Program-made: the position numbers and the translations under genes | Origin: Elusimicrobiaceae bacterium | GTDB lineage: Bacteria > Elusimicrobiota > Elusimicrobia > Elusimicrobiales > Elusimicrobiaceae | NCBI GenBank assembly: GCA_017525025.1 | Contig: JAFXUJ010000001.1 | Coordinates: forward strand, 124,001 to 188,000 | Direction: 5' to 3' | DNA: 64,000 bases | The notes under the pieces: generated by a model | Seen by the model: the letters and a program-made list of their open reading frames with translations, nothing else | Told to the model about the DNA's origin: nothing | The model's database searches: none | Shown: one piece after another, positions 32,813 through 35,509 of the stretch | How the letters are laid out: each line of letters opens with the position of its first letter | How positions within the stretch are numbered: position 1 is the first letter of the stretch

Positions 32813-32856
32813 CAAAAAAAGCGGGGATTTAGCGGTAAATTTGTTAAGATATAAAA
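32813..32856 (+). promoter_or_regulatory. 44-bp promoter block, copy 1
   Basis: Identical base for base to 34194-34237. It contains GCGGGGATTTAGCGG and an extended -10, TGT-TAAGAT (32842-32850). Transcription is predicted at about 32857, one base before the first RNA helix. Full identity, while the RNA after it has diverged, suggests a shared transcription factor or strong constraint. Confidence 0.65.
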
Positions 32857-33110
32857 AGCCCTGTTTGGTTATATAGGGCCGGTAGCACAGTTGGCTACCC
32901 AATTTATGCTGTTTTGGAACCCTTGCGGAAAGGGGGCACCGTTAGTGACGGTACCATTCACGCCAAAACAGCCGTTTTAGGTGGTTTGCACGCGGCCTAA
33001 TTACCCGCATGCAAACTGCCGAGTGTTCGCGTCGTCTTATGACGGCGCGGGCTACGGCTGTTTGCCTTGGAGTGCGTGAATGGTCTCCGGGCAAATGGCC
33101 GTTTTTGTTT
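32857..33110 (+). ncRNA. Structured leader RNA, copy 1 (candidate attenuator)
   Basis: About 254 nt folding into: P1 32858-62/32875-79; P2 GGTAGC/GCTACC 32881-86/32894-99; P3 10 bp 32908-17/32963-72 enclosing two hairpins (CCCTT/AAGGG and ACCGT/ACGGT); P4 hairpin 32984-95/33005-16 with loop CCTAATTAC; P5 9 bp 33028-36/33041-49; and a 13-bp 3' hairpin 33054-66/33090-102 followed by TTTTTGTTT. The loop of the last hairpin (33074-84) is the exact 11-nt complement of 32953-63, a pseudoknot. Every helix is kept with base changes in copy 2. It precedes the GT2 gene. I cannot assign it to a known RNA family. Confidence 0.8.
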
Positions 33111-33152
33111 GCGGTGATTTCTTTCCTTAGGGTGTCACTTAAGGAGAGAAAC

Positions 33153-34124
33153 ATGTCCCCGAAAATATCTGTTTTAATTCCGGTCTATAATGCCCAAAAA
33201 TATTTGCAAGCGTGCTTAGCGTCTATCCAAAAGCAAACTTTTACAGATTTTGAAATAGTTTGTTTGGATGACGGCTCCACGGATGATTCGCTTGATGAAC
33301 TAAAAAATTTTCAAAAACACGAGTCACGTTTACAGGTGCTGACCCAGGCAAATGCCGGGGTGGCGGCCACACGTAACCGTCTAATGCGCCAAGCGCGCGG
33401 AACGTATATTGCATTTGTGGATGCGGATGATGTAATTGCCCCGGATTATCTGGAAAAATTATATACGGCGGCGCAAGAGAGCGGGGCGGATATTACAAAA
33501 TGTTTTTTTAAAGAAATTAGTGAGGACGGAAAACAAATTTCTTCCGCTCGTTGTAGCCATTTATTTTATAAAACTCCTTCGGATACATTGACTAGTTGTT
33601 TTATCTGTGGTTATCACGACAGTATTGTCTGGGGGAAATTGTTCCGCCGGGCATGGCTGGAAGATATAAACATATTTTTTTTAGAGGAACGCATTTGCGA
33701 AGATTTACCATTTACCACGCAAGCTTTTTTGGAAGCCCGCCAAATTACCATTGTGCCACAACACCTTTATTTTTATCGTAAAGGATTAACCCACTGCGTT
33801 ACCACACAAGATGAGAGGGTGATTATTGATTGGTTAAAAAATTTATTGGATTTGCAACACATTTTACGTTTTCGTTCTTTGTGGAAAGACGAAGTGATTG
33901 CGCAATGGGTTAAGGTGGTTGTGTGGCGGATTTGTGCGTTTCGCAAACTTCCCGCCGCCGAACGTGCCCAATATATCCCCTTACAACAACAAGCGTTCCG
34001 GCAAGCCCGGCAAGCTGTATGGGCCGGAGGGTGGCGGAGCAAATTGCGTTGGGGCGGACTATTTGTTTTAGTGAGGTTATGTGGTTGGCGCAGTGTGTAT
34101 TTTTGGACAAAAATTTTTAGATAA
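33153..34124 (+). CDS. Family 2 glycosyltransferase
   Basis: 323 residues from ATG 33153 (AAGGAG site). GT-A fold: ISVLIPVYNAQKYLQACLAS, CLDDGSTDDSL, and the metal-binding region FVDADDVIAPDYLEKLY. The C-terminal third is basic with amphipathic helices, possibly membrane-associated. Probably adds one sugar to a surface polysaccharide. Expressed from the structured-RNA promoter; the AAGGA of its ribosome site can pair with TCCTTA at 33124-33129, so translation may be masked as well. Followed by a terminator. Confidence 0.88.
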   Translation: MSPKISVLIPVYNAQKYLQACLASIQKQTFTDFEIVCLDDGSTDDSLDELKNFQKHESRLQVLTQANAGVAATRNRLMRQARGTYIAFVDADDVIAPDYLEKLYTAAQESGADITKCFFKEISEDGKQISSARCSHLFYKTPSDTLTSCFICGYHDSIVWGKLFRRAWLEDINIFFLEERICEDLPFTTQAFLEARQITIVPQHLYFYRKGLTHCVTTQDERVIIDWLKNLLDLQHILRFRSLWKDEVIAQWVKVVVWRICAFRKLPAAERAQYIPLQQQAFRQARQAVWAGGWRSKLRWGGLFVLVRLCGWRSVYFWTKIFR

Positions 34125-34189
34125 AAAATACCCCGCATATGCGGGGCATTTTTTATAACCCAAACAACAACTACACATGGAACTCTTTA
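34125..34189. repeat. Left arm of 65-bp inverted repeat
   Basis: Matches the reverse complement of 35445-35509 at 64 of 65 positions. It includes the palindromic terminator core and extends through ATAACCCAAACAACAACTAC to AACTCTTTA. The two arms enclose RNA copy 2 and the pyruvyl-transferase gene (1,255 bp). Confidence 0.9.
34129..34154 (+). terminator. Terminator after the GT2 gene
   Basis: TACCCCGCATATGCGGGGCA palindrome followed by six Ts; same core as the one after the pyruvyl-transferase gene. Confidence 0.85.
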
Positions 34190-34193
34190 TTTT

Positions 34194-34237
34194 CAAAAAA
34201 AGCGGGGATTTAGCGGTAAATTTGTTAAGATATAAAA
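34194..34237 (+). promoter_or_regulatory. 44-bp promoter block, copy 2
   Basis: Identical to 32813-32856, including extended -10 TGT-TAAGAT (34223-34231). The predicted start, about 34238, is the first base of helix P1 of the second RNA. Confidence 0.65.
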
Positions 34238-34492
34238 GACTCTGTGTTTGTTATATGGAGTCCGTAGTGTTGTTGGCTACACGATTTAACTGTTTTTGGA
34301 TTGCCTATTAAGAATAGGTGTCACCGCTTAGGCGGTTTCGTCACTCCAAAAACAGCCGTTTAGGCGCCAAGCAAACGGACTAATTACCCGTTTGTATGGC
34401 GACGAATGCACTTGCCTTGTTTTCAAGGCAGGTGTTACGGCTGTTTGTTTTGGGTTGAGTGACGAGACCCGGGCAAATGGCCGTTTTTGTTT
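34238..34492 (+). ncRNA. Structured leader RNA, copy 2 (candidate attenuator)
   Basis: About 255 nt with the same fold as copy 1 but changed bases: P1 GACTC/GAGTC (34238-42/34258-62); P2 GTAG/CTAC; P3 11 bp (34290-300/34345-55) with an extra T-A pair; inner hairpins CCTATT/AATAGG and ACCGC/GCGGT; P4 CGCCA..CAAACGG/CCGTTTG..TGGCG with loop ACTAATTAC; P5 11 bp (34409-19/34424-34); 3' hairpin from 34437 to 34484, then TTTTGTTT. The apical GAGTGACGA (34457-65) pairs with TCGTCACTC (34338-46), a different sequence from copy 1 but the same contact. Upstream of the pyruvyl-transferase gene. Confidence 0.8.
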
Positions 34493-34527
34493 GCCTTTCT
34501 AAGCACCTTTCACCTTGGGAGGGCAAA

Positions 34528-35463
34528 ATGTTAGCCGCTATTGAAAAATGCTTGTTTGGAGTTAATAGAAATAAAATTATTGTTGATATAGCTACGGGAT
34601 ATGATGAGGGGAACTACGGCGATTTGCTGGCCCGGTACATTGTGGAGCAATTATCCGGCAAACAGATTATCAAGCATACGGGGAACAATTCTTACCATTT
34701 GTGTTCAGTCGGGTCGGTGTTAAACCGAAATAAAATGTGTTCTAATACAGTTGTGTGGGGCAGCGGATTCCTAACCCCACAAACAGCCCGGTACAAAATA
34801 GTATTAACAAAAATTAGGCAATATTTGCGTGGCAAAGTTGGCCAGCCGGTTTATTTGGCTGTACGCGGCCGAAAAACACGTGAGATTTTGTTAAAAGCAG
34901 GCTATGTTTGCCCTGAAATTTATGCGGACCCTGCCCTCATAATGCCTAAACTTTATTTCCCAAAAATTAATACGAAGTTTAAATTAGGAGTAGTACTTCA
35001 CTGGTCGCAAGAGAAATTTGCATCTATGTTTAACAACATAGAGGGTGTAAGGGTAATTAACATCAACCGTAAATATAGCGAAATCAACAGTTTTATTGAT
35101 GAAATTCTTTCATGCAATTATATATTGTCTTCCTCTTTGCATGGTTTAATAATTGCCAATGCGTATAAGATTCCTTGCGTTAGGTTGAAAATAGAAAAGG
35201 TCCCTATCGCTACTAGCGAGGAAAAAGATGATTTCAAGTTTGAAGATTATGTTTCCGGATTAAACTTATGTAAAGAAGATAAAGAAAAGCCGGATTATGT
35301 TTTCCATACGCTAACTTTAAAACCGGGAGTTAAACGACTGGATTTGATGGATTTAGTTAAAGCTCAGGCAACAAACCGAGAGTTTGTTATCAATTTAACG
35401 CCTTTAGTACAGGCCTTTCCTTTTTTGGCCTCAGCATATAAGGGTAAAGAGTTCCATGTGTAG
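34528..35463 (+). CDS. Polysaccharide pyruvyl transferase family protein
   Basis: 311 residues from ATG 34528, with GGGAGGG upstream; the longer frame from GTG 34459 would run through the RNA hairpin and is rejected. Family motifs: GNYGDLLARYIVEQL near the N-terminus, VVWGSGFLTPQ, VRGRKTREILLKAGY, YADPALIMPK, and SSSLHGLIIANAYKIPCVRL. Members attach pyruvyl ketals (or act in related sugar transfers) to capsule or teichuronic-type polymers. AT-richer than flanking core genes. Its last codons (FHV, stop) lie in the right inverted-repeat arm. Confidence 0.85.
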   Translation: MLAAIEKCLFGVNRNKIIVDIATGYDEGNYGDLLARYIVEQLSGKQIIKHTGNNSYHLCSVGSVLNRNKMCSNTVVWGSGFLTPQTARYKIVLTKIRQYLRGKVGQPVYLAVRGRKTREILLKAGYVCPEIYADPALIMPKLYFPKINTKFKLGVVLHWSQEKFASMFNNIEGVRVININRKYSEINSFIDEILSCNYILSSSLHGLIIANAYKIPCVRLKIEKVPIATSEEKDDFKFEDYVSGLNLCKEDKEKPDYVFHTLTLKPGVKRLDLMDLVKAQATNREFVINLTPLVQAFPFLASAYKGKEFHV

Positions 35464-35509
35464 TTGTTGTTTGGGTTATAAAAAATACCCCGCATATGCG
35501 GGGTATTTT
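35445..35509. repeat. Right arm of 65-bp inverted repeat
   Basis: Begins inside the last seven codons of the pyruvyl-transferase gene, runs through its 3' untranslated region and the terminator. One mismatch to the left arm (A35487 against C34147). Confidence 0.9.
35486..35509. terminator. Terminator between pyruvyl-transferase and small repeat-protein gene
   Basis: TACCCCGCATATGCGGGGTA is a perfect palindrome with TTTT on the plus side and six Ts on the minus side, so it works in both directions. Confidence 0.85.

Follow-up and report, generated by a model that had tools for sequence, protein, structure and literature searches.

Cyclic di-GMP (c-di-GMP) riboswitches of the GEMM-I and GEMM-II classes precede pilin genes, and antitermination by LoaP, RfaH and UpxY acts at polysaccharide operons. 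Here we describe a structured leader RNA that occurs twice in a 64,000-nt window of an Elusimicrobiaceae bacterium genome (GCA_017525025.1, contig JAFXUJ010000001.1, positions 124,001 to 188,000) and whose terminator-like 3' hairpin pairs through its loop with the upstream core. Like the c-di-GMP riboswitches, it is a leader with a terminator-like end found ahead of pilin-type genes, and GGDEF proteins are present in the source genome; however, it has other helices, another size and another conserved loop, and the GEMM aptamer models of Rfam did not match it. As in the LoaP, RfaH and UpxY systems, an RNA element precedes polysaccharide and surface genes, whereas each cassette here seems to contain a single gene. 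We considered and rejected processive antitermination through a NusG paralogue, the source genome having a single NusG-domain gene.

The nearest working analogue is the corrinoid (cobalamin) riboswitch, in which an L5-L13 kissing loop connects the core to the expression platform and sets the formation of a terminator or ribosome binding site hairpin (PMC10653944). In both RNAs the loop of an expression-platform hairpin pairs back into the core, but the corrinoid contact spans 3-5 bp, has a conserved L5 consensus and answers to a known ligand, whereas the Elusimicrobiota contact comprises ~10 bp of freely changing sequence and runs from the terminator loop to a multiloop strand. The Rfam cobalamin models gave no match to the leader RNA. 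Judged from sequence and from the catalogues and literature searched, this is a new structured RNA family of Elusimicrobiota whose kind, the cis-acting leader, is known. Its members are about 200-250 nt long and are probably attenuators, the pseudoknot serving as a tertiary hinge that couples the terminator hairpin to the core. At the gathering cut-off, Rfam 15 yielded only two tRNAs in the window and neither leader RNA; a relaxed search matched neither RNA core except for an insignificant Pistol hit (18.1 bits, E 3.7). The phage, plasmid and viral-contig collections searched contained no match, and the literature searched held no leader RNAs or riboswitches of Elusimicrobiota, the Endomicrobia papers mentioning pilins and no RNA.

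Pairing between the 3' hairpin loop and the core

From the two window copies, the preliminary description had proposed that the 3' hairpin loop makes the same long-range contact in each with wholly changed bases, and had held chance to be a poor explanation. Both pairings were found as proposed. In copy 1, the loop strand GCGTGAATGGT (33074-33084, + strand) is the exact reverse complement of ACCATTCACGC (32953-32963), giving 11 bp, and in copy 2 the loop strand GAGTGACGA (34457-34465, + strand) is the exact reverse complement of TCGTCACTC (34338-34346), giving 9 bp that reach up to 13 bp with G-U pairs counted. Mononucleotide shuffling of the upstream RNA, repeated 5000 times, produced a 9-nt loop match 8 times for copy 1 and 8 times for copy 2 (~0.2% of shuffles), and an 11-nt match, the real length in copy 1, once, which places the per-copy chance at p ~0.0002-0.002. 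Because the contact occupies the same structural place in both copies, coincidence is very unlikely. The two window copies by themselves would still leave a small probability that two paralogous hairpins are complementary by accident, but the homologues described below, together with all the shuffled and slid controls, refute that explanation and leave it a negligible share of our belief.

A blastn search of 61 genomes recovered relatives of the window RNAs in 13, which all belong to one genus. An alignment of 14 of these RNAs showed two-sided changes at 30 of 57 predicted pairs, and the covariance model built on them (R1) was used for all wider searches. R1 matched in 62 of 66 genomes of the same genus, in a second genus of the same family and, more distantly within the phylum, in family f15; no match was obtained in the listed genomes of family f2, which belongs to the same order, or in 191 further genomes. 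The named GTDB records carrying the RNA pattern are metagenome assemblies of gut Elusimicrobiota. A divergent subfamily in genomes G212 and G161 (L186-L203 and L213-L221) combines a conserved P4 loop, GCUAUGU, and a shorter P6 with a retained pseudoknot, and lies ahead of prepilins. Across the family, the covarying elements are P3b, P4, P5, the upper part of P6 and the pseudoknot.

We used 170 distinct RNA copies for the pseudoknot, terminator and gene-context counts; these copies are related by descent, and the counts are therefore not independent events. Compensatory change proved massive: the pseudoknot was kept in 163 of the 170, where keeping it meant a pairing score of 8 or more (1 per Watson-Crick pair, 0.3 per G-U). 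The duplex formed by an RNA's own two strands had a median of 10 bp in 74 RNAs, against a mean of 4.8 bp when the two strands came from different RNAs. With the 10-bp register fixed for all 170 RNAs, 92.1% of cells were Watson-Crick, 2.8% G-U and 5.1% mismatched; the resulting 94.9% of standard pairs fell to 44.1% when partner strands were shuffled among RNAs (maximum 47.6% in 500 trials) and to 33-45% when the register was slid by 1-4 nt. Nine of the ten positions often use several Watson-Crick types, with position -3 favouring A-U. As many as 143 different 9-mers were present among the 170 RNAs, and within eleven genomes every copy had a pseudoknot of its own (113/113). Since the R1 alignment model, based on the first 14 sequences, did not include the pseudoknot, these statistics are independent of the model, and descent alone is insufficient to account for the pairing given the within-genome diversity and the slid-register controls.

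Comparisons between similar pseudoknot strands gave 988 cells changed on both sides with pairing kept, 61 changed on one side through G-U, and 243 in which pairing was lost in one member. A homologue changed on one side without its partner, the observation named beforehand as damaging to the proposal, was plainly found once (L035) as an isolated case; the pseudoknot was clearly lost in four copies altogether (L035, L147:1268-1442, L181 and L205:134-332), and the vast majority preserve it.

Geometry, constraint on the transcript and competing folds

The conserved core of copy 1 (32909-33107, + strand) begins with the 5' strand of helix P3, CTGTTTTGG (32909-32917), and the P3 3' strand, CCAAAACAG (32963-32971), directly adjoins the pseudoknot 5' strand. 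It is followed by CCG, which is unpaired in the P3/P4 fold and complementary to the P6 5' strand, then by the covarying P4 hairpin (32979-33020) with its 9-nt loop CCUAAUUAC (32996-33004), the P5 hairpin (33024-33053), for which covariation is strong, and the terminator-like P6 hairpin (33054-33102), whose apical loop carries the pseudoknot 3' strand and which runs into a U tract (33102-33110). The same layout recurs across the family. In 155 of 166 RNAs the pseudoknot 5' strand is flush against the P3 3' strand (gap of -1 to +1), and in 151 of 166 its 3' strand meets the upper P6 stem, on the 3' side of the latter, with 0 nt between them, 1-3 nt being left on the 5' side in most. This geometry is the one expected of a helix stacked between P3 and P6. 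The proposal of a long-range pseudoknot joining the 3' hairpin to the core is thus supported by compensatory change and by flush geometry alike.

G-U pairs also far outnumbered A-C oppositions on the + strand in P3 (53:10), P6 (162:8) and the pseudoknot (48:15), which indicates that the + strand transcript is under selection and that RNA is the functional form. This excess, seen in every helix, bears on the idea that the repeats are a DNA-level element, such as a recombination site or an attC-like cassette end that folds as a single strand. Many copies, palindromic helices and the enclosure of the copy 2 cassette by a 65-nt inverted repeat would suit such an element; the inverted repeat, however, is found at one place only, its unique part occurring nowhere else in the genome, and both the U tract and the ribosome binding sites further on agree with transcription. 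We regard a DNA-level element as highly unlikely.

The pairing strands could also serve a different RNA fold. In a nested antiterminator, they would form the outer part, the inner part consisting of the P3 3' strand and the following YCG paired with the P6 5' strand; such a hairpin would surround P4 and P5 and be incompatible with P3 and the terminator, and the contact would then be no pseudoknot in the functional ON state. Several observations agree with it. The P3 3' and P6 5' strands are complementary over at least 7 bp in 148 of 170 RNAs, and the YCG, unpaired in the other fold, keeps its complementarity to P6. In 48 RNAs helix P3 has A.G as its outer pair, while in 97% this G still has its partner in the antiterminator. 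Energy models favoured the antiterminator in 97% of 166 transcripts ending at the pseudoknot strand and the terminator form in 89% of full-length transcripts, a profile expected of an attenuator intermediate, and the centroid fold of copy 2 shows the antiterminator form. However, the inner helix lacks covariation beyond conservation (8.56 bp with own strands against 8.37 bp with strands crossed between RNAs), and nine RNAs keep the pseudoknot with an inner helix of at most 5 bp. The energy comparison moreover omits the fold that combines P3 with the pseudoknot, and the two forms are isoenergetic once the pseudoknot is left out. An antiterminator would also leave unexplained why the pseudoknot lies flush with both P3 and the upper P6 stem. 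Because the energy test omits the pseudoknot, the inner helix shows no added covariation and nine RNAs nearly lose that helix, we consider the antiterminator somewhat unlikely. Since the inner antiterminator helix does not covary beyond its conservation, a pseudoknot that coexists with the terminator appears to be the better reading, though not a proven one.

Terminator-like end, led genes and the proposed attenuator

Copy 1 of the leader RNA (32857-33112, + strand; R1 170.5 bits) consists of variable 5' hairpins followed by the conserved core, and copy 2 (34238-34494, + strand; core 34290-34489; R1 171.7 bits) carries its P6 terminator-like hairpin at 34437-34485, also followed by a U tract. 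Folding z-scores against dinucleotide shuffles were -6.9 and -7.5, respectively. Just 5' of both RNAs lies a 59-nt direct repeat (D1) that is 93% identical between the copies, against ~70% for the RNAs themselves. D1 is the presumed promoter and contains the -10-like hexamer TAAGAT at 32845-32850 and 34226-34231 (both + strand); a -10 hexamer scan across the family gave no clear family-wide promoter peak. Copy 1 leads a 323-aa family 2 glycosyltransferase (33153-34124, + strand; PF00535, E 2.5e-37) that starts 47 nt after the RNA. The gene led by copy 2 (34528-35463, + strand) begins 40 nt past the RNA; its 311-aa product appears to be a polysaccharide pyruvyl transferase and is presumably one of the 2 of 42 scanned led proteins that matched PF04230. 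Flanking the copy 2 cassette, that is, the RNA and the pyruvyl transferase gene, is the 65-nt inverted repeat (34125-34189 and 35445-35509, 98% identity), and the cassette is possibly an invertible or recently inserted segment.

Family-wide, 155 of 170 copies have at least 7 T among the 10 nt that follow P6, and 146 of 170 are succeeded on the same strand by a gene that has a ribosome binding site (median distance 53.5 nt; 38-90 nt for the middle half); most of the other 24 are cut by contig ends. A conserved structure 5' of same-strand genes, ending in a terminator-like hairpin with a U tract, is what marks these RNAs as putative cis-acting leaders. The led genes, as annotated from sequence, are surface or accessory genes. 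They include at least 86 prepilins with an N-methylation motif, with a few more among the remainder, as well as GT2, GT8 and DUF4422 glycosyltransferases, polysaccharide pyruvyl transferases, UDP-sugar enzymes, outer-membrane beta-barrels, lipoproteins, and EcoRI-type and N6/N4 DNA methyltransferases. At one locus (L147, G193:C15), two tandem RNA copies precede an EcoRI-type methyltransferase gene; the nearer copy has lost the pseudoknot, yet its P3 3', P6 5' and P6 3' strands have changed together (UAGUCA, UGGCUA and UAGCCA).

The complete terminator-like end, the presence of copies without an intact gene behind them (L060 and L062) and the broad occurrence ahead of unrelated genes could also describe an independent small RNA that carries its own terminator, acts in trans and became tied to surface genes by cassette-like spread. 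Such an RNA would not, however, be expected to lie as these do, leader-like on the same strand with a start codon and its ribosome binding site in most cases 33-90 nt further on, and the pseudoknot is hypervariable in every copy, which argues against a single shared target in trans. We therefore find a trans-acting RNA quite unlikely.

The attenuator leader that we favour would work as follows. An RNA of the length given above would be transcribed ahead of the surface gene and fold into P3, with two sub-hairpins, P4, P5 and P6, the last forming with the U tract an intrinsic terminator just 5' of the gene's ribosome binding site. The loop of P6 would form ~10 bp with the stretch that directly precedes the P3 3' strand, so that P3, the pseudoknot and P6 stack and the state of the core is tied to whether the terminator holds. 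Through this link, some signal could set the fraction of transcripts reading into the pilin or glycosyltransferase gene. The analysis establishes the RNA family, the pseudoknot and its flush fit, selection on the RNA, the U-rich 3' end and the neighbouring genes; a promoter, termination at P6 and regulation by a signal, in whichever direction control may run, we infer. Several observations weigh against such an attenuator. A 12-nt hairpin loop leaves little room for a 10-bp helix, and a good U tract is missing from at least one RNA (L010). In the source genome, L060 and L062 have the look of orphaned or decayed copies, and in family f15 a distance of 100-300 nt often separates the RNA from the gene. 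The source genome, moreover, has the RNA at just 4 of ~58 prepilin genes, the others inspected having short unstructured leaders.

Prepilin repertoires are large in this group, with ~58 genes in the source genome (G000) and 82 to at least 150 N-methylation motifs in relatives of 1.1-1.7 Mb (G066, G070, G071 and G026). At many RNA-less prepilin genes of the source genome (L230-L259), runs of T9-T14 lie just 5' of a GATACACT-like -10 box, and these promoters are candidates for phase variation through spacer length.

P4 loop palindromes and copy number

The P4 loop of copy 1 contains the palindrome UAAUUA, and other classes of the 9-nt loop contain UUAUAA, GAUC, AGCU, UCAUGA or GUAC; exceptions without a palindrome are UCGCUA and GGCUAU. 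A 4-nt palindrome was present in 38 of 48 distinct P4 loop contexts, compared to 30 of 118 for P5. The layout of 2 nt, a 6-nt palindrome and 1 nt is that of the kissing loop at the HIV-1 dimerization initiation site. These features raise the idea of a dimer- or address-based switchboard for surface antigens, in which leaders with their own pseudoknots and a shared P4 palindrome would sense each other or a common partner and so choose which pilin or glycosyltransferase is expressed. We think this speculative scheme improbable. Selection for orthogonal pseudoknots within a genome was likewise considered and rejected: complementarity within genomes equalled that between genomes in family f1 and was only slightly lower in f15, so that drift suffices.

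Twelve copies of the RNA were found with R1 in the source genome, and full scoring gave 128 in G070, 92 in G026, 53 in G256, 48 in G071, 45 in G102 and 44 in G066, the scored genomes measuring 1.1-1.7 Mb each and the 128-copy genome 1.7 Mb. This high copy number and the ~10-bp pseudoknot made by a terminator loop are the unusual features of the family. With ~10 bp rewritten in nearly every paralogue, it offers a natural experiment in pseudoknot covariation; it also makes the coupling of a terminator hairpin to its core testable and may provide a route to the signal that sets the expression of large prepilin repertoires. If the proposed attenuation holds, an unusually abundant cis-regulatory RNA would govern the surface of a little-studied gut phylum.
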